Assembly: GCA_964036045.1 (NCBI GenBank)
Contig: OZ038389.1
Location: forward strand, 65,104,453-65,168,452
Length of the DNA stretch: 64,000 bases
Direction of reading: 5' to 3'
DNA from: Eutreptiella sp. 'Long Island Sound 2002'
Lineage: Eukaryota; Euglenozoa; Euglenophyceae; Eutreptiales; Eutreptiaceae
Positions 1,084 to 54,100 of the stretch are shown here, piece after piece (positions within the stretch are counted from its first letter, which is position 1; each line of letters starts with the position of its first letter). A program made the position numbers and the translations under genes. The notes beneath the pieces are model-generated. The model did no database searches. It saw nothing but the letters and a program-made list of their open reading frames with translations, and was not told the origin of the DNA.

Positions 1084-1254
1084 GAGCCGCTGCCCCTCAG
1101 TGGAACGGTGCAGCTCAGCACCATCTTCGATGGCACTGGCCACTACTACACGTATGCAGGCAGTCTGACGACCCCTGGCTGCAATGAACTTGTGACGTGG
1201 GTTGTGATGGAGACCCCCAAGGTTGTCAGCCAGGCCACGTTGGACAAATTCAAG
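1084..1254 (+). CDS. CA repeat 1, exon D
   Basis: 57 codons, phase 0 at both ends. The acceptor is TCGTCAG before 1084 and the donor AAG/GTACTG after 1254. It encodes the alpha-CA core strand [12 protein letters not shown], where the first Thr corresponds to the gatekeeper Thr199 of human CA II and the Cys to the partner of the N-terminal disulfide in secreted alpha-CAs. VTWVVMETP and the closing LDKFK motif follow. This is the first exon visible; exons A-C of this domain must lie left of the window. Confidence 0.92.
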
Positions 1255-4200
1255 GTACTGCCTCTGTAGCCCAGGCCCAGTCACACGCCTCGAAACCCCT
1301 TCGTGACCAGCAGCACCCTTCAATAGCTCCCAGGAACCCTCTCCAACCCTCAGTACTCCTCTCCAATCCTCAGCAACCCTCAGTACTTCTCTCCAACCCT
1401 CAGCAATCCTCTCCATCCCTCAGTCATTCTACCCACCCCTCAGAAATCCTATTCAACCCGCAGTAGTCCTCTCCAACCCTCAGTACCCTCAGAAATCCTC
1501 GTCAACCCTCAGTAATCCTATCCAACCCGCAGAGATCTTATCCAACCCTCAATGATTTCTCCAACCCAACCCCCAACAACTCTTTCAACAAGTCACATAT
1601 CCTCATCATTCAGCCTGTGTGCTTGGCGTGCTTGCTTTCGTTCTGTGCCCTCCATAGACCCACATGTAAGGCTCTTGATGCCATGCTTGGGCCCCGGAAC
1701 AACCCTTAGGCACCCGTACTGTCTATCACACAATGCCCACCCTTGCCACACCACGTCTGCTTGCGCCCATTGGCTGCTAAAAAAACTAGCCCCAGTGTGG
1801 ATCCCATGTGCACCCCCCGGAAAAACTGTCTTCCTGGAACCTCCAACGCTCCTCCTTCACACGCTGCCTTTTGTTACGGTTGCAGGCCGCCTCCGCCAGA
1901 CCCCAGGCTGCTGCTCATGGCTCAGTGCTCATTGCAGACTACGGCAATTTTCGGCCATTGCAGCCCCGCGGCAGCCGCAAAGTGTACTCCTCCAGCGCCA
2001 CATCTGCAGCTCTTACCGCGTGTACCACTGTGACAGAACCTGTGTTTGACTGCGCAAGTGTGTGCCATTCCCGGGGGGGGTGTATTGTCAGGTGGGGGAG
2101 TCCAGTGTCTGCACGTACCCAGACCCCCGGACCCCTGAACCGGAGCCCCCCTCCAGACCCCCCAACACACGCCTGTGGGGAACAGCAGTTTCCTGGCCTG
2201 CACAATGAATTAACCCCGAAGATCGAGCCCACAACCTTTGGTTTGTTAGTCCAGGTGTTTGGTTACTGGATTGTCCTCTGCCAGAATTGAAGCATCCTTT
2301 CCCTATTTCGGAGCAGAATGTCAAGAAACGGGTCAAAAAGGTTCTACAAGATTTTTTTGCCAAATCACCAGGGGGCAGCTGGTGGGATTTGAACCGCCTT
2401 GTTGGACCATGACAGCCCAACCCTGACTTACTGCAGACGTACTGTATCTGCACCGGGGTTCGAAATTGGTCGGACATGCTTGTTTTCCCAAGGCTTTGCT
2501 TGATTCATTGATATTGAGTAGCTGCATTACGCTAAACCCAGGTAATTGACAAATCCAATAGCGCGGCGGCGGGGGAGGGGGGGGGGGGCTCAGAGCCACT
2601 TTCTGCTAAAAGGGGTAGCTCCACTGCACGTGCAGCAGGGCGGTCCGTTGACAACGAGATCCTTTTTTTCGTTTAATTCAGGACTGTCCCTTGAGGACTG
2701 CCATCTGGACCGGCGGTCAACCGCCAACCGCCGGACTAACCGTCAACCGCTGGGAGTTGACCACGAACCGCCGGATTTTTATGACCAATTTTTCTTCATG
2801 AAGCACCGACTGGTTGAAGGTTCCTTACCAATGGCGCATTTCAAACGGATGTATTACTGGATGATTTGCTGTGTGCAGTGCCTGGCTGCCTTCTGCATGG
2901 CGGTGTGTGCATTTGTTGGGTGAGCCGTACATCAACGAGTTCTTTTGTGTTAAGGACCGCTCTGACGTGCAGTGAATATGGTCAGCATGTGGAATGAGCC
3001 AGAGGGTACACTCAATGTGTGATGCGCGATAGTGACACGAAGAGAGAACCTGTTGCGGGCATACCACGCCCCTGTCTTTTCCCCCACGAGGGCCTCTGTC
3101 CATTCCAAACAGGCACCGGTGCCCACGAAAGTGCCGCTTATCGGGCCCATTCACCCGATCACTGGTCGTACGACCGGTGCTCAACGGATGGCCCAAGCGG
3201 CTGGAGCGGCACGTGCAGCGGCTCCCAAGGGTCTCCTATCGACGTGTGTGGGGCTGAGACGTATCCGGGGGGCCTGCCTTCGTTCGTCGTGGCGAACTGG
3301 AACGTCTTCCGCAGTTTGCACATCCTGAACAACGGCCACACAGTGCAGGTCCGCTTTGGGCAGGGGGGCAGTCTGGGATCGATTGGGCGCTGAGGCCTTT
3401 TGTTTGTCATTGCGGCCCTACCAATGTGAGCCTTTCACCCCCAGCCCATGCCTGCAGCACCACTCTGGCACCCCAGCTCTCTGGCACCCCATCACTATGG
3501 CACCCACATTGCAGCAACCCTCCACTCCACCACCGGACACTCTCCCTTCCACTATGACACTCCATCACTGTGGCATCTGGCACCCACATGTGTGCGCCTC
3601 GTCACCCCTTCACCCCCCCACTCCGTCACCCCATTACCACGGGGCCCCCCAGATCGTACTTCTTGCCCTCCAGAATGTTGTTGCCCTTCACCCACGGATC
3701 TCACTCACCTCGTCCAGCGGGCAGCGAAAGGACTTGTGAGTGTCATCGTTTCGTGACTGCAATTTTCCGTAGGTCAACGTGGCATCAAATAGACCTTCGA
3801 CCCGGATTGGCAACCTCCACAACGTCGTCGGCCGTGGCAGCAACAGCTCCACTCAAGAGTGGGTGTTGGAGCAGATCCATTTCCATTGGGGCCGAACAGG
3901 CAAGAGCGACGAAGGCAGTGAGCATTACATGCTGGTGTGCGGGGTGCTGTGCAGGCCTGTGCTTCGTGACGAAAATACGGGGAAATGGGGTCGCCGGATG
4001 AAGGGGTCGGTCGGTAGGTAAATGGGTGAGTCGGTGGGTGAAAGGGTCAGCTACCGTTATGTGTCTTTGAGTGGTCGCTCTCGGTGGGTGGCTGTGTTAC
4101 AGAGGGTACCCCCATGCCCGCTGACTTAGGGCACACGCGGCAGACCCAACTAGCGACACCACGGGAAATACCTGGAACTGCAGCGCACCACGCCACAACG

Positions 4201-7200
4201 TCCGACGTCTTTTGTGGGGGGGCAGCGCCCTCCAACGCGGTCTGCGAGTGACCGAATGTGAAACCCGTCACTGGCGAGGGAGTGAACGCCATGGGGGCAG
4301 TGGCTGCAGTTGTGAGCAGTGGGACAGATATTCCACCCTCACCCACACAATAGCCCCCCGCCTCCACACTCCCATAGAACCGACCCCTCCCCAACAAGCA
4401 GGTCGCACAATAGACATGACACTCGACACCGGGTGTTTTGCCGGGCCACCTCCCAGCGTTCATTGAACATCACCCCTCGCTATGAACCCCCTGCGTGGCC
4501 AGGGGTGCATGGTGGTGGCCCAGTAGGAGCAGCATTTCTAGCCTGGAGCCGTTTCCACCGTCCCTCTTCCCACTGTGGGGTCGCCTGTAGGCAGGGGATG
4601 TGCAGTTTTGGGGGTCTTTGTGCACGGAAATCAAGTCCCAGTCAAGCCACGATACCCGCCCATCCCAGTCACCATTCCGGGGCCGGCTCAGGGTCAGCCA
4701 AAGACTTCGTTCACACTGCCCTTCTGCCTGCCCGATGCAGTGACCTGCCCTGAAGACGGGGCTTTGCACTCGTGCAGGGGGCTGCATAGACAGGCTGCCT
4801 CTTTTGCCCTTGTGGATGATCCCCCTTCCCCCTCCCCAAAGGCCCTTGGGCTGCTGGCTGTTGGTGGACCGGCGAAGGGGCTGTGCACGGATTTGATGCC
4901 TTGGGCCACATGGCGCTCAGCCCTGCGCCCCATTCCCCCCTCATTGAGGGTCAATTTGCGGATGGACAGTGCAGGAGGCGCTTAAGTTTAGACCTGCTGA
5001 TGGCGGATTCCCATGTCTACGCGCAGTCTCAAATGGGCCACCCAAGGCCAAGGGGCAGAGCAGTGATGTATTAGAACGGCCGTACACCGTAGGAGGAGGG
5101 GGGGTACCTCTCCTAACCCCCCCTCCCTCCCTCCCCTTGGACCCCCTTCCCCCCTCCCTCCTCTTCTTGTAAAGTTTGAGGCTGACAGCCAAAATTTTGC
5201 TTCGGCGCCTTCAGTGCCAAGAGGATTTAAGCTTCAAAATTTGTGGCCCGCCTTCGGCAGGGACCATAGGGGGACCATAGGAGGAGGGACGGTCTGGGCG
5301 AATCGCCCCCCCCCCCCCCCTTCAGACCCCCCCCCCTCCCCCCCTTCTGGTGCTTCCCTGGGGCAGAGTGTAGATCAGTGAGAGGAGGTCCATGGCGGTT
5401 TGTGGCGGGGGGTGATCCATTGCGGGTCTTGGGGGGGGGGGGGAGGTGTCAAGTGCAATTTGTAACGGGGCGGAGGGGTTCACCCTACACCCCTTACCGA
5501 AAAGGCCTTAACCCCCCGCCCTGCCCCGCCCCGCCACTCGGCGGGTGTTGGTGTCTGGAGTTAAACTGCCAGCAGTATGTAATTCTTCTCCAAGTTGTAG
5601 CCTCGCCTTCTGTCGGAAGCTGACCATCACCCTGCCAGCACTGTGTTGCGGTTCAGGGGAGACGGTACCCGTTGGAGGCCCATTTCGTGCACTACAACGC
5701 CTTCCGTGGGAGCAGTGTGGCTGAGGCCGCCGGGACCGGGCAGCCGGACGCGCTCCTTGTGGTCGGCGTGCTCTTTGAAGTCGGGGTGTCAGGGGAGCCC
5801 CAGGCACTCACCTCTATCGCTGATGGTGTGGCGCAGGCGGCACAGGTGTGCACACTTCCATCCAAGCGCAAACACCGATTGGGGCAGTCCCCCAGCAATG
5901 CCGGGGGGCGGTCACGTGGCTCAGCTGTCATAGCACATGACGCCTGACCAGGAGGGACCGAGTTCGAGTCCCGGATGATGCAGAAGTACTACTGCTAAGG
6001 GGGCGTCTTGCGCGCTGTGTGCGCCCTGTGCACAAATTTTGTACAGGACCATACCAAAGCTGCATACTAGTGCCTAGTACCAGTAACAACGAGCCTTGTT
6101 ATGCATTTATATGAGTTGCTTGCATGCTTTGCCCTCATTTCTAGTGCATTTGGGTGTGTTGTTGTGCCCTAACCTGTAGTTTCCTTAGAATTTGGATTTG
6201 GATTCTGAGTACGAACTATGGTGATACATTCGGGTCCCTTTTCCGGGGATATGAACCGGCCTACAAATTTTTGCATGCTCGAATGATACAAATCTGTACA
6301 ACCCTCCACGTTTCCTTTATGCATGTGAATGTTGACAATTTCAAGAACGACAATGTCCTGAGCTGCAGCAGCGAACATCTTGGTCTTCTGACAATTAGAA
6401 GGGACCTTGATGGTCCACGAAGGGGTACGGCACCCCTAAAAACCAGGTTGGATATGTACAGGTTTGAAGAAAATGTACATAGCATGTTGCTGGAGCAAAC
6501 AAACACTACACCAACACCAAGCACCACATCTTTCTGTCTGTTTTGGTAAGAATATTGTCAGTTGTAGCAAAAACCCCCAAGTTCTCTCTGTCATATGCGC
6601 GCTGTGCACGCGCTGTGCCAGGACGCCCCCTAAGACGTCCTCGGCGCGAGCTGGAAGGGGCTAATACTGGTTCGCTGGTGCCTAGAGATGGCCTGGGTAT
6701 TTTGCGTCCACATCGACCATCAGCGTTGCTCGTAAAACAGAAAATCGTTGTGGAATGAGACGACTGGCAAGACACACGGGATCGAAAGGGGCAGGATAGG
6801 CAGCGCTTTGATATCACGGCGAACATGTGCGTGCGCGGCCCGCGCGATGACAGAGGATGCACACATCTTTGGCTGCTGGCAACAGTTTTGCGCCGACATG
6901 CTGACATGTTCCCGTCGCATTTTGCAACCGCCGGCAACACAAATGCGCTCGTGGGCGGGGGGCAGGGCGACCACCCCTGGGGGCGTAAGGGCCGAAGAGA
7001 GTCCAGACAAGTATTGGGCGCCATCACCCCCATAACGTACCGGAGGCGAGCAGCAGCGGCACAAGCGACGGGATCGACCCCCCAGCCCACAGATACGACG
7101 GGGGGATGGGGCGGGGCGGCGCCCCGTGACGCAACGCGCTGTCGATGTAGGGGACAGGGGTTTGCCCCGGGACAGCATCGGCGTGTGGCACTGCAAACCA

Positions 7201-10200
7201 CCGCTTGTTCCACGCTTCAGGAGGCCTCTCTTTTGGCCGACACCGTCCGGCTCAGCACCATCTTTGATGGCACTGGGTACTACTACTCGTACCCGGGCAG
7301 CCTGACGACCCCCGGCTGCAATGAGATCGTCACGTGGGTTGTGATGCAGCGGACAAGGATCGTGAGCCAGTCCACGCTGGACAAGTTCAAGGTGCCGCTG
7401 CCCCCACCCCAACCCCATCCTCCCAACGTCCATTCATGCCTTGGCCATTCCAGCGTTGCCGACAGTGTCCAAGGAATCGCCATCAAGGCGCAGGGATGCC
7501 AAGGGGCAGAAGCAGTGGGACAAGTCCCACACTCTCCCACCCACCGGCTGTGAACAAGCAATGAAGACAAGTTCCTCCTGAAATCCCTAACCAGTGCGCA
7601 CACTCGGCAGCACCAATCGGCAAACTTGCTCAGCTTTTATGGCAACCCCACCCCCCAAGAGAAGTATTAGAATGGCCGTACACCACAGGAGGAGGGGGGT
7701 ACCCCCCCTGGACCCCCCCCCCCATCCCCCCTTCTAATACCCCCCCCCCCCTCCGTCCTGATGTCTGACTGACAGCTACTGACTGTGATTGTCTGACTAA
7801 TGTAGTCAGACATGATGTTCTGTTTTCTGTTTCAGACACAGTGTGTGTCTTGAGGTTCAACCAGGTTTGGCATAGAGAATAAAGATGCACTTATGCCTGA
7901 CTGTGGAGTGCATTACCTCTGGTTTGCATTTGTCTGTTTTTAATTAGGTCACACCCCCCCTCCGTGTACGCACACAGTCACAGGTACGTGAAGAGACGTC
8001 TCAGCGCACCCGGTTTCCATTGCTGCTGACGCTTCGGGCCTTCCCCCCCCCCCCCCCCTCGGAGCAGTCTTGCCTCAAAGTGGCCGGTGCTCAGGGGGGG
8101 GGGGGGGGTCACCCTGCGGCAGCAACACCGCGGGCAAAATGCCTGGAAATGCAGAACGCCGCTGATGGGCAGCAATGGTCGATGCCGGGCCTCCAGGTCG
8201 TGTGTCACGTCGGGGGAGGTCGAGGGTACCCTCGGCGCCTCACGCACCGGCAGCGGAGTGGACCGCCACGGGGGTTGTGTGCTGCCGTCAAGTGCGATCA
8301 GCATTCCGCACTCATCCACAACACTGAGCGCTTCCGCTGTTCTCTCGGGAGGCACAGACAACGCATGTCACACAACAAATGTGGCAGTTCACACGGCGTG
8401 CATTACACCGACTGACCAGCCTTTGTGCACCCCGTCCCCCCCCCCCCCTTCTTCTTTTTCAAGTGCGCCAAGTGCTGTGCCTCAGGCCAAAATTTTGGGC
8501 AGTGCCATTTGATTCCAGCCCCGCGCCATCCCCCCTCCCCCCCGCCCGCCCATGTCGCTCAGTGCGGACCCAGATTTGGGTTTGTTTTACAGTCAGGACG
8601 GTACTGAAGGACGCTCCTCTGGGCCGGCGGGTACCGGCGAACCACCGGCGTTGACCGCCGACCACCAGCAGTTACCACCAACTGCCGTGCTCACTGGCCC
8701 AAAGTTGTTAGTGTCGCACCAAACGCCGTGTCGAAACCGCCACATCTTGTCAGCCAAGTTCCTTTTGCTGTTGGGTAACCGCCAATAACTGTGGGTGACC
8801 GGTCAATGGTTGCGCTGTTGGCGGACATGCGCCTCCCCGTTTTTTTTTTTACGAGGCGCAGCCGAACACCCGAGCTTTGTGTCCCAGTGTTACCGAGAAG
8901 GCCTGGGTGGTGAGTTTACGGTCGCCCTGTCTCAACCTTCGGCTCTCCTCGTGCCCAATGCCACAGGCTGCCTCCGCCAATCCTCCGCTGGTTAAGAATT
9001 TCGGCAACGGCAAGATTGCCGACTGGGGCAACTTCCGCCCCTTGCAGCCCAAGGGCAGCCGCCGAGTGTACACCTCCAGTGGCAGTTCCGCAGCAACAAT
9101 TCCCTGTGGCACCCCGGCAGAACCTGCTTTTTCCTGCACAGGTCTGATGGCACGTCGGCGGGGGAGTGGTGTGGTAGCGGAAGGGGGTGGGGCAGGGGCC
9201 AGGGTTGTGCTGGGAAGCCCAAAGGGGCAGGAGAAGGGTCACCCCCGTAGGTCTGGGAATGACGGAGTGCAAGGTATGTCCCAGTGCTTGAAGGGGAATG
9301 GACGCCAGAGGGGCAGTAGCTGCAAGCGTGAGCAGTAGGACATACACTGCACCCTTACCCACAAGAATGCATTTCTCCCCCCCCCCCCCCAACCCTCCCC
9401 CCCCCTGTGCACATTGCCCCTCCAGCTGACCTCAACCAACATCCAGGTCACACAACAGACAACAAAGACATTGCACTGGACATTGGGTGTCCAACTGGTG
9501 TGTGCTACACGGTAACCGACCATCCTTTCTGGAACGCCCCCCCCCCCCCCCTGCGTGTACTACCACGGTGCGGTGAGAGCATCCTGGACACCGAGCCCTC
9601 TTGGCATTCCTGATCGATGCCCAGGCCTGCCTGCAACCTCTTTATGGTCCGTCGCACTTTTGCTTGATGCGGTCGTGCCTGACAGTGCGGCAGCGGGTTG
9701 GGTGCCCCGCTCCTGCAAAGCTGAGGACAGCCCCAAAAAGAATAATAGGACCCGTCAAAAGCCGCTTCGTGCCCTTTGTGCATTGTGCTCTGAAGTGTTT
9801 CTTCACCTGAATGGACACCTTTTTTGGGCTCAGCATTACGCTCCTCTCCCTCTCCCTCTCCCTCTCTCTCTTTCTGCTCACGCTTTGTGATCAACAAACA
9901 CAGAACGCCGCAAGCGCCGTTTCCAAAGTCAGAAAATGCACAGCATCTTTGCGCGGAGTGCATCGGCTTCTGTGGCAACAGTTCCCCGTTCCACCCATCA
10001 CCTACCACAGGCACATCGATGAATACATCATATGTGTGTACGACTTTCCTGTGTTTCCTGCCCGTGTGGTGTCGTCCTGTATCGTGTGGTCCATACAGAG
10101 TGTGTTCCCACGTTTTTGTCAAGGAAAAGCCACACGGATGCACAGCAGCCCACACGCTGTGCCACTCGGCATCAATCGCCAGCAGGTTGGAGGGTTGCCC

Positions 10201-13200
10201 TCCCCACACCCATAACAGAAATGCGTCATGGCGGATGTTGTACTGATCTTTATGCTTCCACCTGCTTCACGACGTGCCCTGACAATCGGTGGATCAACAC
10301 ACTGTTACGCCCCATCCTGCTACCCAGTACCCCCCGGAGGCGAAATGCAGGTGGCCAACATAGCACCACCGCGTGATAATAGAAAGGGGAGCGGACTGCC
10401 ACTGCCGCTGCCACAATCGCTGTACCGCTGTCCACTCAACCCCCTCAGGGGGTCTTTGGGCCCTTTCAGGATGGAGGCTAAAAACATCTTCCACGCCTAC
10501 GGCGCATTCGAAAGGGAGTAAGAAGCGCACCACTCTGTTCTAGTGCTCTCCAATACCCAACCCCCCAAGGCGGAGGTCCGGCTTGTAGCCACCTGCACTC
10601 AACTCGGGGCACAAGGGCGAGAGTTCACCTGAAAAATTGGGAACACTGTCAATTGAGCCAGCCAGTCCTATGACCCCCACCCGAACCCCTCCACCAGCAC
10701 ACCGGACATCCTCCATCCCACAGTCATGGCATGCTCCATGATGCAATGATACTGAGATGCCACCCTCCCCCTTCTGGGTAGCAGGGCCCGTCATGATTGA
10801 CGCCCCCGCCCGTTCCCCAGACAAATACATCTCTTTGGGATTGCTGTCATCCAGACAACACACGACAAAACACGTCCCAGTGGTGTGTTTATCCATTGAA
10901 AAACAATTGTACGTGAGCCCATCAGCCCACGCACGGACGTGCATGTCATCAACCAGCGCGTGTGTCTTGTTGGGTGGTTGTTCTGGGCGCTCCCTCAGGG
11001 CGCTCAGGAGAGACAGGGTGATAAAGGAGCTTCCTGACCAGAGGCAACAAACGACCCCCTTGCACGGGAATAACAGCGGGGATGAGAGGAGCAAGTGAGT
11101 GGAGAATCGACCCCAACACGGCACACAAGACAATGAACTGTGGCGCATGATATCATTTTGATGCATGATATTGTGGGGAGGGGGTTGGGGTTTTTACGCA
11201 GTTCCTCAGCCCAGCAGTCCGCCGCAGCACAAAGACTCACAGTGGGAAGTAGCAGTGCGCGGTGCTGTGGCCGGAACTCTCTGCAAATCCTCCAAACGAC
11301 AAGCGCCGGGGTACTCGGCCCCGCGGTGGTATGCAGCCGTGCACAGTTGCTCAGCTCAGCAACACGAAGCAGTCGCAGAGGAAAGCGGTACCCAGCAGCA
11401 CATGTGCCGCTGTAACCTCAGGCGCGACACCCTGGTTTGGCTGAGAACGGGAGGGGGACGGGGACTGAGGGTTTGGTGGAGGGGACGGAGGCTCGGGGGC
11501 AAGGGAAGGGGATGGCACACCCACCCGCTCCTGCAATCCAATCTCCAAGGCATTCCCATTTCATGTTGAGTCAGACACCCCCCCCCCCCATAAAAAAAGA
11601 AAGGGGGTCTTTTTTGGGGATGTCGCCCAACGTCAGGGTTCCGTGCCAACGGCGCAGTGAATGTCATTTAAGTCGCCAAATACAATGGGCTTTTCGTGGG
11701 GTGTCGCATCGCTCCCCTGCTTCTGTGGTGCAGTTGGCAGCCATGGTCACGATGACCACCACAAAGTCCATGTGTCCACTTGGGAATACGACCGCTGCTC
11801 CGATAAGGCCCCAGACTACTGGACCTCGGGTTCGTGCTCAGGCAGCGAGGGGTCGCCAATCAACCTTTGTGGCGCGGAAACGCACAGCAGCCTGACCAGA
11901 TTCGTCACCAGCAATTGGAATGCGCAACGAAATCTGGAGATCTTTAACAATGGCCACACTGTGCAGGTGATGTCTGCAAAGGATGATCATGATGAGACAA
12001 GAAGGATAGTGTCAAAGGCGAGGTGACTAGGATGAAATATTGGGGTCCCAATGGGTGGGTACTTTCAAAAGTAGGCGACTTGGCCTCTCATCCGAATTAT
12101 GGCTTTTTGAGTACGTGCATTCTCAAGCCATCCCAAGACAAGGCTCTTGCTATGTTCAACTATTTTGCCTGGGTTGACTGCGACATATCATGCAGCAATC
12201 TGACAATTGTGGCTGTTATCTGTGTGCGCCTGTTGCCTACGAACTGTGGTCCGGGATGTGGATGCACATAATTCTCGCGGTGCGGGGATTCGGTGGAGGG
12301 TGGTGGCGAGAGCCATCCCATCATGGCGGCTGGACGGAATGAACAGGCGGTACCCTCGGCGGCGGTTCGGCTCGGCCGGTTAGGTTCCGGCGGTTCGGCT
12401 CGGCGGCCGTGTCGGCCGGCCGAAGTGCCACCCGGCGGTCCGGCCGGCTGATTCAGCCGGCCGAGACCGCCGGGCCGTTCCGATGCACCCCCCCCCCCCC
12501 CTAAGCATCCCCAGGTTAGGCACCCCTTTTTTTCACCCACCTTCACCTGTTTTCACCCATCCTTTGCTCATTTCCACCACTTCCACTCCTTTCTAGGTTG
12601 ATGACTCGCAATCCACGCTTTGTACGCGGTGCACACACAAGGCGGTGCACACAAAAGGCGGTCTATAGCCACCGCAAGAGTCATGTTCTTTAAGGGGCCT
12701 CAAGCAAGGCGGTACACACAGAACGCGGTGCACAGACAAGGCAGTGCACACAAAAGGCGGTCTATAGCAACTGCAAGAGTCATGTTATTTAAGGGGCCAC
12801 AGGCAAGGCGGTACACACAGAACGCGGTGCACACACAAGGCGGTGCACACAAAAGGCGGTCTATAGCCACCACAGGAGTCATGTTATTTAAGGGGCCACA
12901 GGCAAGGCGGTGCACAGAGAACGCAGTGCCCACACAAGGCGGTGCACACAAAAGGCGGTCTATAGCCACCGCAGGAGTCAAGTTATTTAAAGGGCCACAG
13001 GCAAGGCGGTACACACACAGAACGCGGTGCCCACACAAGGCGGTGCACACAAAAGGCGGTCTATAGCTACCGCAGGAGTAATTTTATTTAAGGGGCCTAA
13101 GAGGGGTATTTTGCTTTTTCAAGAGGCACATGGGGTGGGGGGTGTATCGGAACGAGCCGGCAGTTCGGCCGGCTGGCGGTGTCAGCCGAATTTTCGGCCG

Positions 13201-16200
13201 AAATCCTCGGTGGCGGTCTCGGCCGGCCGGACCGCCGCCCGGCGGTTTGGCCGGCCGACACCGCCATTGGCTCCTTCATTTTCGGCCGAGCCTCACCGAC
13301 GCTGAGCCTCACCGCCGTTTCATTCCGATGAGCTCATCATGGCGATGGAGGATCCGGATGAGCGTCAGGGTGAGAACATGGGTGTGGGCAGGGGCGTGCA
13401 CTGTGCTGCCCTGCTCTCTGCTGTGGTGTGGTTCGCTGTGGTGTGCGGTGTTTTGCTGTGCCAGAGTTGTGCTGTGCCGTGCTTTGGCAAGCTGTCCTGT
13501 CCTGTGTGGTGTGGCGTTGTGCTGTGCTGTGCTGTGATGTTTTGTGTGCAGTGCTGTGCTGCGCTGTGCTGTGCTGTGCTGTGCCATGCTGTGATTTGCT
13601 GGAGACCCGATTCGATCGACTCTTTATGTTGTCATTTCGGCATTGGTAAGCAAGGGCGCTGTGAATAGTGAGATATTTCTTCTGTTGTTTTCCACTAAGG
13701 GCAGTGTGAGATCTTGGTGGCTGCAATGCGGTCAAGCGACGGCGGTTGCCCGGTAACCGGCAGCAGACTCTGACCATCTGGTGCACTGTTCAGGCCCAGG
13801 CGTACTGGAGTCCAGCAGTTTTTGTTTTGTTTTGCACGAAGGACAGCCCTGCTGATGGTGTTCATCCCTTTTGTTGTAACGCGCCTGTTCTCCTTTTCCT
13901 CCCGCTGATCTCCAGGCCACTGTGCTTTCAAACAGCCCCACCACACAACTGGGCAGTCTACATTTCCTCGTGGGACGTGGCACCGACTCCAGCATTCAGA
14001 CTTGGGTGATGGAGCAAGTGCATTTCCACTGGGGCCGAACAGGGCGTGACGATGAAGGAAGCGAGCATTACATTCAGGTATCTGCAAGGCTGGTACCCCG
14101 GCACCTGCAATCCGCCAGTCCCCCCCCCCCCTTTTGCAGCGCAGGATGGAGTGGTGGTCTCAAGCCTCGGATCCTGGACTGTCTGTGGCAGCAAATGGGG
14201 GGTAAAGGAGGTGGTATGGCCGGGTCTGGGGGGAAGCAGACGGACAGGTATCCAGGGCTGTCTCCGTGCCTCAGCCCTGCACCACACTGCAGCACAACAA
14301 ACCATGACACATCAGAAGGCAAGGCAGGCACAACCACAACACACCACACCACACCACACCACACCACACCACACCACACCACACCACACCACACCACACC
14401 ACACCACACCACACCACGCCACGCCACGCCACGCCACACCACACCACACCACACCACACCACACCACACCACACCACACCACACCACACCACACCACACC
14501 ACACCACACCACACCACACCACACCACACCACACCACACCACACCACACCACACCACACCACACCACACCACACCACACCACACCACTGGTGACCTGGCA
14601 CCAGTCTAAAAACCCTCAGGATGGTAGCTGTGGGACGGATTGCCCACACGCACTGCCACGCTCGAAGCCAGTCGTGATACGTCTCGATTTCTTGTGCGTC
14701 TTCCCTGTGTCAGGCCGGGCCCACCCCGCCCGCCAACCGTCCAGGACCCCTCCCTGGGCCAGACATGCAGTCCTGTGGGGGACAGATGCACATACGTGGC
14801 CTCCCCCCGACCGCCAGACGCCAACGTGGCGCTTGCCCCGACAGCTCTGCGCCGACATGGCGCGGGCTCAGTGGTAGGGCACCATCGTGGTGCCGCGAAC
14901 GTACCCGTGCGCCGTCGTGGCGCGGCCTTCTCGGCAGAACGCCGCCGCGGCGCCGCCCAAACAATCCAGCGCCAACGTGGCGCCACTTCAGTGGCAGCAC
15001 ACCACCGTGGTGCAGCCAACGTGCACGTGTGCCGCCGTGGCGCAGTGTTCGGGGCACGGCGCCGTCGTGGCACTGCCCAGACAGCCCTATGCCTCCGTGG
15101 CGCCAGTTCAGTGGCAGAGCGCCATCGTGGTGCCGCCAACGTACACGTGCGCCATCGTGGCGCAATCCTCAGGGCAGAACGCCACCGCGGCGCTGCCCAG
15201 ACAGCCCTGCGCCGACGTGGCGCCAGTTCAGTGACGTGGCACCACCGTGGTGCAGTCAACGTACACGTGCGCCGTCGTGGCGCAACCTTCAGGGCAGAGC
15301 GCCACCATGGCGCTGCCCAAACGGTCCAGCCTGGCCATGTTGTGTCCTCCAGGCCAATACTTGAGGCACCATGGCGGGGTCTGCACCTGGTGCTCCGCCA
15401 CCCTCCGTGACACCCCGTGCAGAGGTGACGAGTCATCGGCGGTGCTCACCGCCTCACGTGCCATCGGTGAACGTCGCCGTCTCGCTCGGGCACCATCGTG
15501 GTGCCACCTTCTCGGTCATGTGCCTTCTCGGTGCACGTATCGTAGGGCTCGTCGTTTGGGCCCGGCCCTTGTGGCCGGGCGTCCTCAGTGATCTCCATGG
15601 CGGTGCACCACCGTGGTGCTATGGCTGTGACGCACGTCCCGCACTCACAGAACCCGGGGGTACCCAGGCCACCGGCGGTGCGCGTGATCGTGTAGCGTGA
15701 CCGTACTCGCGACACCGGCGGTACTCAGCCCGCCGGCAGTGCGCATAGTCGTGCTGGGCCGCGTTCTATTTAGCCCGGCGACGTTTTCAAGTCGGGGGTG
15801 ATGCCCCGGGAGACCCACACCTTCCGTGCCCGTTGATCCTGGGACGCTACCTCGGGTGGATCCAGGACAGTTCGGAGCGGTCGGTGGCCGGGACCGGAGA
15901 GCAGATCGGACCGTAGCGTTGTCGTACACCGGCGCTTAGACCCAGACGGCCTGCTGGGAGGGGCGTTCTCAGGTGTGCGACGAGATTCGTCTTACTCTAG
16001 CGGAGGTAAGACGGAGGACTCCCTCGGCTGTGCCTGCGTGGGGCCCCCGGGGGACGACGCCAGGGCCCATCGTCCGTGGGACCGCGGCATGCGCTCCTCC
16101 TCCTCCTCCTCCTCCACACCACACCACACCACACAACACAACACCACACAACACAACTGCATGCAAGCCCCAGACCTCAAGGAAGCTGCTGAGATGCTTT

Positions 16201-16568
16201 TGGGCTGCGGATTCCTATGGTTTGACGCCGTCTAACCCAAACTGCGTAACCCGGGGAACAGAATGGGGAGCCTTGGAAGGATTTTCGCTTCCGAAAGGCG
16301 AGCCTGAACTTGCGGAGGAATGAAAAGGGGAAGGGGGGAGGGGGGTGGATAGACCCTGGGGTACATGAATGAAGGTGGAAAACGGTACACAGGTCATTGC
16401 CTGGGGTGAACCAGCCCGAACCCCCAGCACACACACACCATTGACACGAGACGAACAAGCGAGCAATACAGCAATACAGTAGCCCACTAAACGAATCTCG
16501 TCGGGCTGCAGGCGTCACGTAGAAGAAGGAGTGAAAGAAAAGAGCACGAGTCGGCCACACACACGCGT

Positions 16569-16619
<51 letters not shown>

Positions 16620-17162
16620 CACAGCAATGGATGTACCAATACACACTCATCAATGGGTGTTCTTGTTGGAGACAGACCAGACATGCAGCAGGCAGAAACA
16701 GAGGCAGAATCGTGTGGACAGAGCCTCTGGCAGACGTCCCCTGTTGAACGGGGCCATCCACCCGGTGCTGACTGGAATCGGTTTACTAGGTGGCACATAA
16801 GTGATATATATGCTGATGTCTAGCGCACGCAAAGAGCGAAGAGCTTGTGCCTACACGTCCGCCTGTGATGAACTGCATGGGAATGGCAACTGGGTTTTGG
16901 ACAGAGTTCAGAAAATGCTAAGAGATATCTGACACTCTGAAACTGTGGTTGGCCCGAAGGCCAATATGGTGCAGTGTGTGCTGCCCGCCATGAGCTGCAC
17001 CTCAACACCATAGAAAAGACAAAAGCGATAGAGTGTGTGACACCGTGTTTAACACACGCGCGCCCGCGCCAAGGCAATCGCCAAATTGAGTAGGTCATGG
17101 GACCTGCCCTGCGGGCGCCTGTGATTCTGGGCAGGGCTTTGCGACAAGGGATACATACCTCG

Positions 17163-17240
<78 letters not shown>

Positions 17241-17264
17241 TTGCGAGACAAACGGGCAACACAA

Positions 17265-17325
<61 letters not shown>

Positions 17326-41300: not shown

Positions 41301-44300
41301 GTCCCTCGCAAATCCTGGCTCACGTCTGTCAGAAACGTGAAAGTCAAGCGTGGTCAGGTATTTGCGTTAACCTGACAACCCGTCCTCCATCAATAATGTG
41401 ACAGGCACACCACCATTAGGTTTTTGACAGAAGATGGGCTGTTATTTTTTGACGATGGCTATCAGAGTTCTGACACAAGTGGCCACGGGCAACAAAAAAA
41501 GTTGGCCGACGAGAGGTGTGGAATGAGAGAATCCAAATTCCGCCGAGTCTGCCCCACACACAACAACCAAAAGCCACCCAAGACTGCCCATGGGGATGCA
41601 CCAGCAACTCGGTGGGTTTCGACAATTTCCCCAATTTTCCTGAATTTTCGGTCCGAGGTGCCAAAATATTGTTCCCTTGGGGGGGGGGTATGTGTATAAC
41701 TTTTGAAGTCTGTGAGAAAAGGCCCTTTCACCGCACAGTCTGGACCACTCATCAGCAACACGGGCAGTGTCCAAAATGGACGAAAATCTCGAATATATCG
41801 TCAGTACAGCATGCAGACCCGGGTGTTCCAAATAGCCCTTCTTAAGGGCTTTCTGAATATACCCAACATACCCTCCCCCAACAGGACACAGGACACAGTG
41901 GGCACAAATAAAGCAACAATGACAACAACCACCGAAAACCCACCAAGTTGGCATAATCGGTGCCGTCAGCGAGAGATGTACGATTTTTGTCAAATGGTTT
42001 TCAGTTTTTTAGACATCCAACAGAGCTGAGCTTAGCTCTAAAGGAACAAACACACCATCATAGTATGTCTTCTTCTACCCGAGGTACCATCTTTTGCCCT
42101 AGCTCATTTGGATCTCCTGTCTACCCCCCCCCCCCCCCAAGAACAGCTGTGACATTCGAAAAAGTGTTCGCACCAACCACAACACGTGCCTCTGGAGGGG
42201 GCACATTGCAACCTGCTCAAACCACCCAAAAGCTGCAAAAATGCCACCTGAGGGGAGTGTTTTGGGACCGACCCGGCGGCTGTGGACAGGGTATGACGAA
42301 GCGGTACCGTACCAACAATTTGAGGAAGGAATCGGTAGCGGAGTCCATGTTCAACCTGCTCTAGGAGCCTGCCGTGTTTCGCACCGTGCAACACGAGGGC
42401 AAGTGCGGAAGGTCAGAATTTTTGAAAATTTTGAAGAAACGATTGAAAAATTACTGAAAAAAATTTGGACAGGGCAGCAGATGGGCATTGCTCTGTTGGG
42501 CTGCAGTGCACTGTCTGCGCTCTCTTTGCCCCAGAACCTGAGTGCTTCCTCACATTTTGCACAGATACTGGCTACTCCGAGAAGCATCACGGATCTTGGT
42601 CGTATGACCGGTGCTCTGATGTTGGGCCCAATGACTGGACCGGCTCCTGTGGCAGCGGAAATGAAGGCTCCCCCATTGACATTTGTGGGGCAGTGTCAAT
42701 GTCAGCACCACCCGCGATTTTTGTCCAGTCCTGGAGCCTTCAACGGGAGTTGCACATGCTGAACAATGGCCACACATTTCAGGTGTGCAGCCCCGTGCAC
42801 TTCCAACACAGCGCCGCCATCCTTGCACCCCACATCAAACTCAAACCAACAGCAGCGGGGCTCTTCAAATCTGTATTTTTTCTTCAACAGATGCGGCCCT
42901 TGGATTGGTAGGCAAGCGATGCCAGTGCGGGGGGGGGGGGGGGCGGGGGCTCCGCGGGTCCTAGGACGCCAACTACCCCCCTCTAGGGGGCCTCCGGCCA
43001 ACAGTTAGTTGCGAAAGGTGCCCGACGCTCCATGGGCACCAAAGACACCCAAAGAAAATTGTGCACCCCACTTTGCACCCCAACACCATCCTTAAACCCA
43101 ACCCTGACCCTAACGCCCACCCCAACCCTCAGCCTAGTCCTAACCCTAATCAAGACTGAATATTGGGACCGAGCTGGTGGGGGAGGGAACATTAGATATG
43201 AATGGTGAGGGACACCAATGAGTCACACATTGAAGGCCGTTGACAGAGTGGAATGGGCTAGCAAGTGATCCCCTTCACCACAAGGCCCACTTTCAAGGCT
43301 TTTGTGGACTTGTGAGGGGCCAAAATGCCCCAAAATGGGCTCAAAATGGGCTCATTTCACCCGTTTGTGCACCCCAAATGGTGTAGATGAGTTTTGGAAA
43401 AATGCATTTTTGACCCATTTTTGACCCATTTTTGGTCCCAAAACAGCGCATCTTCAAGGCATTTTGGGATTTTCGGAGGACCAAAATGGGCCACCACAAG
43501 CTCAAAACAGTCCAAAAACACTTGTTTTAGCATCGCACATGGTGTAGGATCATTTTTTGAGAAAAGTCATCTTTTTGCCCCTATTGGACCCTGTTGACCC
43601 ATTTGGGCACCCACCTGTTTGGGCTTGAGCTTGCAGCTTGCCGCAGCCTAGTGGGTCTAGGCGTCCATTTGGGCAATTCTGAGGGGTGGAAACCACAAAA
43701 AGTGGGGGGTTGTGGGTGGACTAGGTGCCCTCAGAATCGTATTTTGAGCCATGTAGCCAAAGATATGGCCTGTTCTTGGTTTTTGGCTGTCGCCAGCCAA
43801 TCTGCACAAAATTTGGGGCTTCTGGGGGCCTTTTTGGGCCGTTTCCGGGACATATGGTGGAGTTAGAGGGCCGCAAAGGGCTCGTTGACACAGGAAAGTC
43901 AAGCCGCACATGGAGTGTACCCACACTTTCCCTTTGTTTGGCCTTTTTGAATGGGTTCTAGGGCTGTTTTGGCCCAAAAATGGCTGTTTTTGGCCCTAAA
44001 TTGCAGTTTTTGAAACCGAGGTCCGCCACTTGCGACACCCATTCCCGGCCGCCACCGTTGAGTTTCTGGCTCATACTTTGTGTGGTTGTCCCTCACACCC
44101 ATAGGCATCCACCAAAATTTCAGCCGAATCTGAAGCACCACGACGGAGTTCTGATTTTTCCCCATTTCGCGCGTGCTGCTTGCTGCTTGCTTGCTGCTTG
44201 CTGCTAAACCTGGTAGGTCCACCCTAGACACTAAAAAGGGTTATAAAACCAAGACTGGTTCCACCAGCTCGGTGACCCTACACCTACCCCTATCCCTACC

Positions 44301-47300: not shown

Positions 47301-48125
47301 CATGCCAGCCATTTTCATCAGGCTGAACAAGATTCCCTCAAATTTCGTTCATGGCTGCTTTTGCCACATCATTGCTCTCCATTTTGGACCCCAACACCTC
47401 CTTAGGGGGTCAAACGTGCCACTACATCCTTGGGGTGTGGTGCAAGAATACACCCGAGTGCATTGGAATGCTCTGTTTTGGGTGGATGGGTCTGTGAGGA
47501 GACCCCCCTCCCCCCTCCACACTCTTGCATTCCCCTTTATCTGGTGAACAGCCCCGTTTGTGTTTTGAGTACCAACCAATGCCCAGAGATGTACGCACAT
47601 CGATACATGCATGCATGCATGCATGTATCTGTGCATACATACGTGCTTGCAACAGACCGACCGACCGACCGACAGACCCACACACACACACACACACACA
47701 TACACATGCTTCATGCTTGGTGTGCAACTTTTGACTGCAGGCCACCACGAGCGCACCTGGAGGTCATTGTTAATTCTTGGGAGCAGTTATTGCTATTGGT
47801 CCCTTCATCCACTTTTGCCCACTGGAGGACTCAGGACTCCTGCGTGCCCTCGTTACCCAAGGAACAAGGCCAACCAAGCCCCTATCTCCCCACCGCCATG
47901 GGCTCCACCTTCTCACCTTTATCTGCGACTTAATCTCTGCAGCCCCAGACCACGCCTCTAGCGACACTAACACTACACACCACCTTCAGACCCACCGAAA
48001 CCGCCCTGAACTGAATGTCACCCCCAAGGCATCCTTCCTGCTCCTGCTGGCCAACCCCCCTGCTGTTTCCCAGCTTCATCTCTGCACCGCTCCTACGGGC
48101 CCCTGTCGTATTCACCCCTGCAACT

Positions 48126-48161
<36 letters not shown>

Positions 48162-51100
48162 ACACCCACACATACAGGCGTACATATCAACCCCAGCAGT
48201 GTACCAGGCTGGGTCTTGGGTCTGCCTTGATCCAGACATGTGACCCCGGCTCTGACGGTGCAACGATGGGGACCACAGTTGGGGATCAGGGCCCGATCCA
48301 TTTTCTCTCCTGGTTTGACAGCATCAGGCATTCGCAGCCCGTGCCCAACTCGCTTTTCTTCTTCCTCTGTGAAGCTTACCCATGATCTGCGGGGACGGGG
48401 GGCGGCCGCAGGTTACGCTTATTGTCGACACCTGAGCAGTGGTTTCATCTCTTGTCTCATGGCAGGTGAACATGGTGGCAGACAACCCAACAACGCAGAT
48501 TGGGAATATCCACCAGGTTGTGGGCCGTGGCACCAACAGCAGTACTCATCACTGGGTGCTGGAGCAAGTGCATTTCCATTGGGGCCGAACGGGACGCAAT
48601 GATGAGGGCAGTGAGCATTATCTCCAGGTCACCCTCCATCATCCCCCACCCTACAGTGGAGGTTGCTGCCGTATTGCGTGCCGGCCGGATAGTGTCGCTT
48701 TGTACAAGTCTCGCCCCAACCTTGTTGCACTACGTTTTGCCCATGGAGCTGTGACCGTAGTCTCTTCTGTGAAGATCTGTGTGTATGTGCACACATGTGC
48801 ATCTACGTGTGTTTGGGTGCATGTCGGCACATGTACGTGTAACGTAAGGGAGCATAAGATAATGTGATGTAACGTAATGTAATGTAATGAATCGCACCGG
48901 GGTGCAATGCGATACAATGTAATGCAGCGTAATACAATGTAGTGCAACGTAATGTCTTGCCACGTGATATTTTGCAATGGACAGTTGTAACATGCAATGC
49001 AGTGGGGGCTCTGGGCCTGTGACGCACGCCAAGCGTAATTCCGCCTGAGCAGGACGGTAGAAGGTTGGGATTCCCTGCCACGCTTTTGCTTGAGCTGCAG
49101 CTGTAGTGTCTCCTTTGCAGAGAGCAATGGTGTCAACAGATCAACATGTCGATGGTGAAAAGATGATATTGTGCAATTCAATATTTCTGGGCATTTGAGG
49201 ACTTACTCTTGAACTGCGGCGCCGATGGCGTCCATGCAGTGGAACGCAATTTCATGTTATGCAATGTTTGAATGTTTCGGTGTGTGCGTGTCCGTGTCCG
49301 TTTGTGTGTGTGTGTGCGTGTGTGTGTGAAAACATTGCATGTGTTCGGATTCAAAAAAGGTGCGCCCGAGGGTGTCTGCTTTCATTTGTGCTCAGGGACG
49401 GCGCTACCCTCTGGAGGCCCATTTTGTGCACTACAACGCAATGCACGGGAGCAGTGTGGCAGAGGCTGCAGGCAGTGGGAAGATTGACGCCCTCCTCGTT
49501 GTTGGGGTGTTCTTTGAACTAGGGGTATCGGGAGAACCTCAGGCATTGACCACAATCGCCGAGAATGTCATTAAGGCATCGAAGGTCTCGCCGCCCTTGG
49601 CCTTGCCCCCGCCCCTCTCTCCCTTTCTCCGTGCCCCTGCCCTTGCCCCTTTGCCTTTATCCCTTGTCCCTGCTCTTGCCCCCTGTTCTTTTTGTTCCTG
49701 CCCCTTCCCTTGGCCCTGCCCCCCTTTGCCCCTGCCCTGGCCCCCTGGGGTGCCTTCTGGCACTTGCTGGTTTGGAGTGATTGGCTTTCGTTTGGATGCA
49801 GGAAGGCTTGTCACTCCAAACGACGTTGGCGGGGGTTAGGCCGGTTTGAGGCCTCGCCTGCCCGTACCCCGGGATTGTAGCAGGTTCATGGCGCCTGAAT
49901 ATTTCATGGCTGTTCGCGATTGTCAGTGACTTTTATGGCAGAACGGCCGTGGCTCGCCTCCTCCCTTTCCAACAGCCATTGCTCCCTCTCCAACAGCCGC
50001 CGCCCCCTCGCTCCCTCTCCACTGGCGGTCGCCCCCTCTCCACTCATGCCTTTGGGGAAGGTGGCGCACTCCTGCCGTTGAGGGATACAATTGTGATGGA
50101 CACCAACAACAGAGGCGCACGACAAGAGCCTGTCAGTCGCAAACTACGCACCACACCTGAGGGCACTGCCTCTCTCCATATTCACTCAGTATCGAACCCC
50201 CAAGCCCTCGTTTGGGGCCCTCCCCCTGTTTGAGGAATGACGCCGCAATGGCGTGCCACGCAAGGCAGGGGCAGGCCGAGGGCAGGGCCAGGCAGGGGAC
50301 GGGGTGGGGCTGTCCATGTGCGGCCATATCCATCCTCCTGATCATCAATGATCAGGTCCATATCTGCATCGTTGAGGGCCTGCATCGTCCAAGGGACATA
50401 GAGCAGCAAGTCCTGAGCACTGGCCCATGCACATGTGAGGGGCAGGGGCAGGGAAGGGGAAGGGTAAGCGCAGAGGAAACGGCAGGGGTGAGGTAGGGGC
50501 AGCGGTCGGAGGCACGATGTGGGTGTGCAGGGATCGAGGGTGCCACAGGGCTACAAGGGCCAGGGCCCTCCCCAACCACAGACGCTTTGCTGCTGATGGG
50601 GTGCCCGTCCTTGGGCGCCCTCTTGTCCCCAACTCAAAAATGTGATTCGCACACCGATCGTAGCGCTGGCCTTTGCCCGTGCAACGCACCACGGCCCAAC
50701 TTCACAGGCGCCCACCCTCATGGCTGGCAAGGCTCAGCTGAGCACCCTCTTCAAACCCTTGGGGCAGTATTACACGTACGCCGGTAGCTTGACGACCCCC
50801 GGCTGCAATGAGCTCGTCACGTGGGTTGTGATGGAGACCCCTCTTGTCGTGAGCCTGGCAACTCTCAACAAGTTTAAGGTGTGAAGGAAATGGTAAAGTT
50901 ATTGGCTGACTGACGGACTGATAGGAGGGAGGGAGGGAGGGAGGGAGGGAGGGAGGGAGGGAGGGAGGGAGGGATTGGATTCGATTGGATGGGATGGGAT
51001 TGGATTTGGTTTCGGATTGGATTTTAGATTTTAAATGGTACCGTGGTTTATGCCTCCTCCGTGCACGTATGCCTTGGCAGAAGCGAGCGGGGTTGAGGAG

Positions 51101-54100
51101 AGAGAGGGAGAGAGGGAGAGGGGGTGGGTGAGGGGGAGAGGGGGGGCATAGAGAGGCGCCCGCGCGGTGTGAGACAGACAGACACGGACAAGGGACAAAA
51201 AGTTGAAAGAGAGGGGGCGACATTGAGTGGCGTGGAGTTGGGTTTAAGGTGTTTTGCGCAGCAAAGCACGGCACGCACACACCATCACGCAGCTACACAC
51301 ACACGCGCGCACGCACACCGCACTGCACGGCAAAACACACCACAGCACAGCACAGCACAGCTTTCCTCTGCTGTGCTGTGTGTGTGCGTGTGTGTAGCTG
51401 CCGCCTCCGCCCTCAGAGCCTCCCCCTGTGGTGCCTGGCCTTTCGTTGCAGGCGGCGTCGCTAAACCCGTACGTTTCGCTGGCCAATACGCGGCAGGGGC
51501 TCATCGCGGACTTTGGAAATTACCGCCCGCTCCAGGCCATCGGCTCCCGCACCATCTTCTCCTCCAGCGGCGACACGACCGCCTGCGATGTGGCTTCCAC
51601 GCCCGTTTTCAAATGCTACGGTATGAAGCCTTCCACCGGGGGCGTCAACGGATTGTTGGTTGTTTTTCCTACCGCCCCCCCCCCCCCCGAATAACAAATA
51701 GATACCGAGGCCTTGTGCCCCCCCCCCCCCCCACCGACACGCCGACGGTTACGGGCCAACCCCCGGTAAACCATCAATTGTTAGCAGGTACGTGCCGACT
51801 TTTGTCGGGTAACCGCCAACTGCTGTCCATGAATTGTCGACGCCGGCGGCTGCAAAATGCGACGGGAGCATGTCAAACTGATGAGACACGAAGACGCAAC
51901 CAGACGCGGCCGGGCTGGGGCGTGATCAGCCGTGCGCCCGCTTTCAGCACCCGCCCCCCCCCTTCTCCCCCTGAGGCGAAGCAAACGGCGGCCAGTCCAC
52001 ATTGGCCGTCTTTCCCACGGCTCAGGCCGAGTGGCTGACAATGGTCGAGTTGCTGATCCTCCGCTTCCTATTCCTCCTCCTCCGCCGCCGCCTGCACCTC
52101 CGCCTCCTCCTCCTCCTCCCGCAACTTCCCCTCTTCGCTGAGCAGTTTACGCCTGCTGCGCCCATCTTTGTCCCCTGTTCAGATGGTTCTGAGCCATGCG
52201 CAGCAGCGGAATGGTCTACGTACGACGAGATGCTCAACTGCGGGTCGGATACCGCGTGCAAAGATCGAAAGGCTGCAAACTTGACGCGGTCCTGCGTCGC
52301 ATGCGCATCCAACGGGACGCTGCAAACGTGCTTCCCCAAAAGTATGTCACGCCCACGATATCCGCACGACGTCCGTTTGCAGACGCGCGGTGATGAAGGG
52401 GGTTGTGTTGGGCAGGGGGATGGAGGGGAATGGCTTGGCCTGCTCGGTTGTGCCTCGCCTTCACAGATATATTTTCAAATGATCAGTGCTATGCGCGCCG
52501 TTTTTTTTTTTTGCAGGCGTTGCCCTTGTCGAGTTCCGAGTCATGGATTTTTTTTCCCCTACCCCACTCCCCCCCTCCCTTTGCGAGAACAACGCCAACA
52601 AGGTACTGCTTCCGCAGTTTTGGATTTCATTTTCGTGGTTCCATTTTCTGGTTGTCTGTGAAGATGAAGTGTTTCCTGCGATCGGGGCCAGGGATGGCAT
52701 TTCAGGGACGCCGCTTGCTGTTCTGCCACTTTTTGTCCGTCTCTTCAGTACGTGACTCTGATTCACCCCCATCGACATGGTTGCCTGGGCCTCAATGATG
52801 CGTTGCTTCACCGCTTGTGTCTTTTCGCAGTGCGCGCACACACAGCCCTTGTGAGAACAACCGGAGGTGTTTCCGTCATTTTCAGTGGTTGTGCCGTTGT
52901 TCTCGCAAGGGGCGGGGGGTAACTTGTCTGCATCGAAGGCAACGTTCTGTTAGTGGAATGATGACGCGTATATTCCAATGCTTTTGGCGCTCATGCGTCC
53001 GCGAACCTTTGCTTTACACGGCCATCCGCTGCAGTGACGTCGTCCCCGAAGTCCTTTTTGACAAGTGAGCGGCCTTCACCCCCACCCCCTCTCCGGAAGT
53101 GATGGGGCCAATGTTCCTTTGGCCCCTGCGGCCCGCATTTTCGATTGTGACTGCGTTTCGGCATCCACGGCACTCTGTGCGCCAGTGCACCATTCCGGTC
53201 CCTCCTACGCGCTACATGTGCGATTTCCCGAGAGCGCGGCCCCGCGGGTCGATGTTTCTGATCGGGAGTGCCCGGGCGGAACGGGCTGACCCGAACGGCG
53301 CAGGGGGCAGGGGTTGGGGAATGGCCCTTTCCCCTCCCTCGAGCACATGCCTGCAGTCCCCCCGCCCCGCCCTGCCCCCGCCGGCCTCCGAAGTATGATC
53401 CCCCAGACCCCCAAACTGCATTTTCGGCGCCACGCGTGTTCGCAATGCAGCAACGTGTGCGGTCCACGACATCCTGACGCTCCGCGACATTGCAATGTGC
53501 GGCTCCGACGGGCTCTGCACCCTCGCGGCGTGGCTGAGACTGAGCCCCGAGTGCGGCCTCTGCCTGTACCAGAACAGCATGGAAGAGCACCGCTGCATGC
53601 CCGAGAGGGACGCTGGTATCCGGCCTGTGCCCCCAATGTCCGCGCGTGCGTCGCACGCACACCTGCGGAGGGGGCGGGAAATGTACCCACACCTGTGCAC
53701 AGTGGGGGCTGCTGCGCCAGGGGGCCGCAGGTGCAGGTGTAGGCCACCAATTGGACGACCCCCCCCCCCCCCCGCCCCAAGTCATCACTGGATCACTGAC
53801 AGAGTCTGTTCTCGCTTTTCCTGGAGGACTGCCCTGTCCAGCACACCTCCCCTCCTCAACCCCTCAATGCCCTCAACTGATCGAGCGGAACCATCACAGA
53901 CCCCTTCTGGGCGGTCCCTGTCACCACCGATGTCACAGAGGTGCATCGGTGCAAGACTCCTGCGGCACATGACGAGGCGTCATCACAAGCGATGCGGGTA
54001 CCTGTAGGCCACATCGTGTATCATGGGGGGTGTCCCCCCCCCCCCCCCCCAACCCCCAGCCAACCTGTCCCACTCTCAGCCAGTAAAAACACAGGTCCCC

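Follow-up and report, generated by a model that had tools for sequence, protein, structure and literature searches.

A euglenid gene and its predicted secreted product, a chain of seven alpha-carbonic anhydrase domains

Introduction

What does a cell gain by joining several copies of a fast enzyme in a single polypeptide? For alpha-carbonic anhydrases (alpha-CAs), the advantage of even two domains per chain is termed enigmatic in a paper on giant clams (PMC5879104, in excerpt). The question returns on a larger scale at a locus of the euglenid Eutreptiella sp. 'Long Island Sound 2002'. The window, i.e. the whole stretch of 64,000 nucleotides analysed here, was placed at C12:65104453-65168452 in a search of the assembly (2.28 Gb, 2205 contigs) for the alpha-CA family, which also revealed alpha-CA exons to the left of it. 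An initial annotation had assigned six or more alpha-CA domains on one strand to a single gene, had called such a number exceptional and had suggested a possible role in extracellular CO2/bicarbonate supply or in mineral/wall chemistry. Whether this is one gene, how many domains it encodes and whether its product stays in one piece are considered below. Our reading is that a single euglenid gene probably encodes a secreted protein, 2152 aa or more in length, whose seven catalytically complete alpha-CA domains would make it a multi-site CO2/HCO3- converter outside the cell or on its surface.

Extent and splice structure of the gene

Model splicing joins 27 exons on the + strand, from 1084 to 51620, into a coding sequence (CDS) of 4936 nt and 1645 codons with 0 stops. 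Five complete domains and the end of another follow each other in continuous frame, as initially annotated and with exactly the same coordinates. Self-comparison of the open reading frames of the window distinguishes five exon types, A to E, in the strict order D1 E1 followed by five rounds of A-E. The exons are listed below in window coordinates. Exon D1 rests on the joined CDS and the PF00194 match, A and E exons on splice-site placement and the joined CDS, the remaining B, C and D exons on the motif scan and the joined CDS, and the tail exon on its acceptor score.

1084..1254, +, exon D1 of domain 1; partner exons A1-C1 are outside the window, to its left (C12:65101472-65103294)
1886..2057, +, exon E1, phase-1 donor A|GTGTGT
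3113..3348, +, exon A2
3773..3934, +, exon B2, HFHWG
5657..5845, +, exon C2, EAHFVHYN
7221..7391, +, exon D2, GSLTTPGC
8967..9141, +, exon E2
11734..11966, +, exon A3
13916..14077, +, exon B3
17871..18059, +, exon C3
19940..20110, +, exon D3
21319..21493, +, exon E3
21960..22174, +, exon A4, 466 nt past E3
22566..22727, +, exon B4
23607..23798, +, exon C4
26860..27030, +, exon D4
28989..29163, +, exon E4
31046..31263, +, exon A5
33278..33436, +, exon B5
37604..37795, +, exon C5
39228..39398, +, exon D5
40668..40833, +, exon E5, GC donor, the sole non-GT donor among 34 domain-exon introns
42565..42782, +, exon A6
48466..48627, +, exon B6
49396..49584, +, exon C6
50708..50878, +, exon D6
51452..51620, +, exon E6, the final one with domain sequence; phase-1 donor ACG|GTATGA, alternatively read-through to TAA at 51692
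52517..52755, +, tentative C-terminal tail exon, low confidence, 79 codons including a split one, hydrophobic C-terminus

The gene begins 19.1 kb to the left of the window, where a tblastn search of 30 kb with the window exons located eight additional exons, comprising the whole of domain 0 (A-E) and A1, B1 and C1 of domain 1. The expectations that the array extends leftward and that the true number of domains is above six were therefore correct. The whole gene spans 70.7 kb (C12:65085326-65156072) and consists of 35 domain exons with 6457 nt, encoding 2152 aa with 0 stops. No extra alpha-CA exon was detected in the 10.9 kb upstream of domain 0 (tblastn, at its sensitivity) or in the window 3' of E6 (motif scan, self-comparison of open reading frames and family search, at their sensitivity), so the total stands at seven complete alpha-CA domains.

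The 34 introns between domain exons measure 391-6557 nt (median 1.6 kb), and 33 are GT-AG with one GC-AG intron between E5 and A6. All six inter-domain introns run from a phase-1 donor to a phase-1 acceptor, and that between E3 and A4 is just 466 nt long. The five junctions that the initial annotation had singled out for transcript mapping (2057/3113, 9141/11734, 21493/21960, 29163/31046 and 40833/42565) have plausible splice sites, with four GT donors, one GC donor (40833), five AG acceptors and phase 1 on both sides. Exon ends were set by eye and the splice-site scores were derived from those very sites; 8% of all AGs score at least 5.

Three direct copies of a repeat of about 1.15 kb, with CCCTAA-like stretches at the copy edges, occupy 43119-46611 in the 5.7-kb A6-B6 intron. 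Further intronic tandem repeats are found at 12624-13097 (99 bp), 14333-14587 (5 bp), 14818-15330 (120 bp) and 37460-37567 (5 bp). Ten of the 294 open reading frames of the window, all stop-free (eight downstream of E6, two intronic), had no Pfam match at E 0.1, and the window has no tRNA and no Rfam family at the gathering score.

Domains and catalytic residues

A motif scan of the + strand of the window found HFHWG and EAHFVH at five sites each and GSLTTPGC at six; the - strand has only two matches to an ELHxVH pattern, which lie opposite exons B3 and B4. Pfam PF00194 matches the 1645-aa protein of the window in six stretches (E = 4.1e-281), the number that the initial annotation had predicted, and domain 5 alone covers positions 2-253 of the 254 in the profile (E 4.7e-50). 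In the 2152-aa protein, seven domains were recognised by a home-made HMM trained on these same domains. HFHWG, E(A/V)HFVHYN, NNGH, GSEH, SLTTPxC and six Cys are kept in all seven. The six Cys columns are invariant over 13 aligned domains, and six of the seven domains have one N-glycosylation sequon.

The three Zn histidines, the His64 shuttle, Glu106 and Thr199, named by human CA II numbering, are present in 7/7 domains. Domain 5 was aligned to the chain of a solved CA 7; among the best 60 of 242 matches, its best solved relatives are carbonic anhydrases 7 and 2 (best E 3.2e-28). By sequence, the seven domains are putative, catalytically complete enzymes, and their conserved Cys presumably form disulfides. 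Pairwise, the domains are 55-64% identical in amino acids. They differ by 0.32, 0.26 and 0.54 at codon positions 1, 2 and 3, a pattern expected under purifying selection, and the bias towards third positions argues that the array is no assembly duplication.

Ends of the predicted protein

The first exon has an ATG and MRLTWLLFLSLVFDIQA immediately ahead of domain 0, with in-frame stops upstream. This N-terminal peptide was judged signal-like by eye; signal-peptide and GPI assignments in this study were made by eye and from hydropathy, without a trained predictor. Domain 0 is the only one of the seven domains with a start codon fused to such a peptide. An AG lies nine bases 5' of this ATG and could be a spliced-leader acceptor.

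At the other end, reading through the donor of E6 would add 24 aa before a TAA, and reading through those of E0-E5 would add 21-77 aa. A translation stop by read-through after E6 is therefore unsupported. A tail exon was sought by hydropathy, with an acceptor matrix derived from the 34 introns of the model, and by tblastn with eight tails. The last filter left seven candidates, of which 52517-52755 has the best acceptor score (16.6 in phase, versus 5.0-15.7 for the 34 modelled acceptors). The tail of P0022, a single-domain relative, matches within this exon at E 0.05. This is at chance level, since chance matches elsewhere were equally good (best 0.013), and the tail exon is therefore only tentative.

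Related arrays in the same genome

A search with P0022 found two further arrays on the same contig as the window gene, namely array X (C12:57374540-57415590, - strand, 42 matches) and array Y (C12:48984919-49000740, + strand, 14 matches). Counted by motif, Y has 14 units and X has 40; of the other two in X, one is without the motif and one is outside the stretch scanned. The units are mostly 933 bp and have no introns between them, and a signal-like peptide stands at the start of each array. The open frame of X runs for 7690 aa, through 24 complete units and the greater part of the next, to one TGA, followed later by two frame changes. Array Y has two TAG, at the identical codon of two units.

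Forty-two full-length units (34 of 42 in X and 8 of 14 in Y) were compared, leaving out end units and those with missing letters or another length. Their mean identity is 98.7%, with 77 distinct changes: 41 non-synonymous ones over 717 sites, 35 synonymous ones over 216 sites and one stop. Changes found in at least three units number 10 non-synonymous and 21 synonymous, and singletons 21 and 6. From these counts, the older variation looks constrained and the newest unconstrained, or else the newest is error.

Array X seems to end with a likely phase-1 intron at the place equivalent to E6, followed by a GPI-like tail; no such tail was found in Y by hydropathy and tblastn. It is conceivable, if unlikely, that X is expressed besides the seven-domain protein and yields a GPI-tailed product in which tens of alpha-CA domains follow one another (at most 42, in roughly 13,000 aa), in which case array length would set the dose of carbonic anhydrase at the cell surface and could be changed by unequal recombination. 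At C6:94522879-94526637 there is a further alpha-CA gene, which has two domains, a signal-like peptide and no introns. Among the predicted proteins of other public contigs, P0024 matches the end of X and P0140 matches the C6 gene, as judged by eye. Contigs C19, C24, C25, C15, C8 and C22 have many similar alpha-CA fragments in two pieces (profile positions 37-116 and 120-223) separated by about 1.2 kb, and in most of them a TAA lies within the first piece; these are perhaps a mobile or segmentally duplicated pseudogene.

Phylogeny and database relatives

A tree was built from 41 domains or proteins, with 14 of its 38 inner branches left open. It includes one bivalve single-domain protein (P0065) and leaves out giant-clam DDCA, Dunaliella salina CA, P0002 and P0004. 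The domains of the window gene, all seven, make up one clade (99/93), with which three of the four array domains group (95/70); the first array domain has an unresolved position elsewhere in the tree. Six domains of the shrimp Palaemon carinicauda form a clade of their own (100/97), which points to an independent amplification. The simplest reading of the tree is one amplification inside the lineage of the window gene and a separate one in shrimp.

Outside this genome, the nearest relatives by sequence are the single-domain proteins P0020-P0023 and P0025-P0028, 43-52% identical to domain 1, followed by cryptophytes. They include P0022 (EG_transcript_5933) and P0027 (GGOE01065367), whose labels we take to denote Euglena gracilis and Euglena longa, respectively. 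These relatives and the spliced leader (see below) point to a euglenid genome, and not to a green, red, brown or dinoflagellate alga. P0022 is only 49% identical to its best place in the genome, so that E. gracilis itself is probably not the source. Seven of 11 related proteins (P0020-P0023, P0025, P0027 and P0028) combine a single domain with a signal-like N-terminus and a C-terminal tail that is hydrophobic.

About 8000 candidates were scored in each of two protein database searches. The 1645-aa query matched 19 proteins, and a 614-aa query gave 957 matches, the best 120 of which include several animal proteins of two- or three-domain size and no EG_transcript longer than 406 aa. The uncharacterised P. 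carinicauda protein P0001 (1569 aa) has six alpha-CA domains. The SLT-P motif is found seven times each in P0002 and P0004, six times in P0003 and four times in each of P0006-P0008. Predicted multi-domain alpha-CAs are thus already in the databases, with six domains in shrimp and about seven in unnamed sequences.

One chain, several enzymes or several genes

The main rival to an intact seven-domain chain is a polyprotein, in which one mRNA would give one precursor and cutting of the linkers would release seven single alpha-CA enzymes. It is a serious alternative, albeit a rather unlikely one, because Euglena makes RBCS, light-harvesting proteins and PGK as polyproteins. The euglenid lineage fits, and the window gene, as spliced by model, has tandem units in one open reading frame. 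Euglena RBCS is made as an eight-unit precursor from which decapeptide linkers are excised, and light-harvesting proteins and PGK are likewise polyproteins (PMC4938576, in excerpt). In two Euglena species, the decapeptides of RBCS are alike except for one residue (same excerpt), whereas the six inter-domain linkers of the window gene are mutually dissimilar in length and sequence, His-rich in places, and have no dibasic site. RBCS also has a tripartite plastid presequence (same source), but in the window gene the signal-like peptide leads directly into domain 0. Neither a conserved short linker peptide nor a tripartite plastid presequence is present in the window gene. The short His-rich linkers (e.g. 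in exon A3, from 11734 on) are possible metal-binding stretches.

Much less probable is a row of seven separate genes, each with its own transcript, which might be produced by trans-splicing of the spliced leader to the acceptors of the A exons. The domains do stand head to tail, and the euglenid spliced leader occurs in thousands of genomic copies: its pattern gave 3756 + 3664 matches with up to two mismatches (7420 in total), against 0 + 0 for the reversed control. Some of the 7420 are perhaps SL RNA genes. This leader has been reported in Eutreptiella, as identical to that of E. gracilis (PMC3621762, in excerpt), and euglenid trans-splicing could in principle yield shorter mRNAs that start at an A exon. 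The frame upstream of A1-A6 is open for 25-184 codons. One or two in-frame Met are found upstream of each of A1-A3, which might serve as starts; that of A2 is followed by no hydrophobic stretch, that of A3 by a weak one, and those of A1 lie more than 70 codons upstream. For three of the six A exons after the first (A4-A6), the frame contains no Met as far as the closest stop upstream, and none of exons E0-E5 has a stop ahead of its donor. The open frame, phase 1 at all six junctions, the 466-nt gap between E3 and A4 and the single signal-like start together argue for one gene, as had been proposed in the initial annotation. A decayed or unexpressed gene is most improbable, since the frame, the catalytic motifs of all seven domains and the 34 introns of the model are intact at 55-64% identity with a third-position bias, although the related arrays X and Y contain stops or frameshifts.

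For the preferred reading, a single seven-domain protein, we infer splicing into one mRNA, secretion, activity, anchoring and a physiological role. The N-terminal signal peptide would take the chain into the ER, where seven domains with conserved disulfides may fold on short, non-conserved and partly His-rich linkers. The chain would then act outside the cell or at its surface, interconverting CO2 and HCO3-, and may be anchored at its C-terminus. Each export or anchoring event would thereby deliver seven active sites. The gene itself probably grew by duplication of a five-exon module with phase-1 introns at both flanks. The extracellular proteome of E. gracilis includes a "carbonic anhydrase 1" predicted as 'other' or chloroplast and not stated in the excerpt to be an alpha-CA (PMC10038220), which gives no support either way for secretion.

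Comparison with known systems

Seven intact domains, relatives with 14 and 42 units and a separate six-domain chain in shrimp suggest that tandem amplification of a fast enzyme recurs. The question of its use is thereby made testable, whether this lies in the dose brought by each anchor, in retention or in no more than the processing of a precursor, and it bears on the CO2 supply of euglenids and on whether the Euglena polyprotein habit reaches beyond the plastid. The described alpha-CA chains that were found have two domains, and the window gene has seven; the arrays on C12 appear to have 14 and 42 units, partly broken by stops or frameshifts. Among the papers listed, from a literature that takes in few subscription journals, none was found to describe an alpha-CA chain of more than two such domains. 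The word "exceptional" is weakened by the 14- and 42-unit arrays in the same genome and by the six-domain shrimp protein and the unnamed proteins of about seven domains.

P. carinicauda P0001 resembles the window protein in having six alpha-CA domains in one predicted chain, at about 30% identity. The unnamed JGI proteins P0002 (2012 aa) and P0004 (2076 aa) have seven SLT-P matches each but are 24% identical, with only four and three H-x-H matches; their N-terminus looks dinoflagellate-like. The single-domain relatives P0020-P0023 and P0025-P0028 share a signal-like N-terminus with the window gene (in those read) but have one domain and a hydrophobic C-terminal tail.

Several alpha-CA domains per chain are also found in the giant-clam dual-domain alpha-CA (DDCA/tgCA), a membrane or secretory chain with two domains that each have their own catalytic site, and in Dunaliella salina CA, cited as a double-domain sequence (both PMC5879104, in excerpt). 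These proteins have two domains and not seven, and are of animal or green-algal origin. The Euglena RBCS polyprotein is likewise euglenid, with eight tandem units per precursor, but is plastid-targeted, has conserved decapeptide linkers and is cut to monomers (PMC4938576, in excerpt). The zeta-CA CDCA1 of Thalassiosira weissflogii comprises three repeats with an active site each, and at full length it is about three times as active as a single repeat (PMC4413181, in excerpt). It shares with the window protein the repetition of active sites in one chain, but belongs to another CA class and fold and has three repeats.
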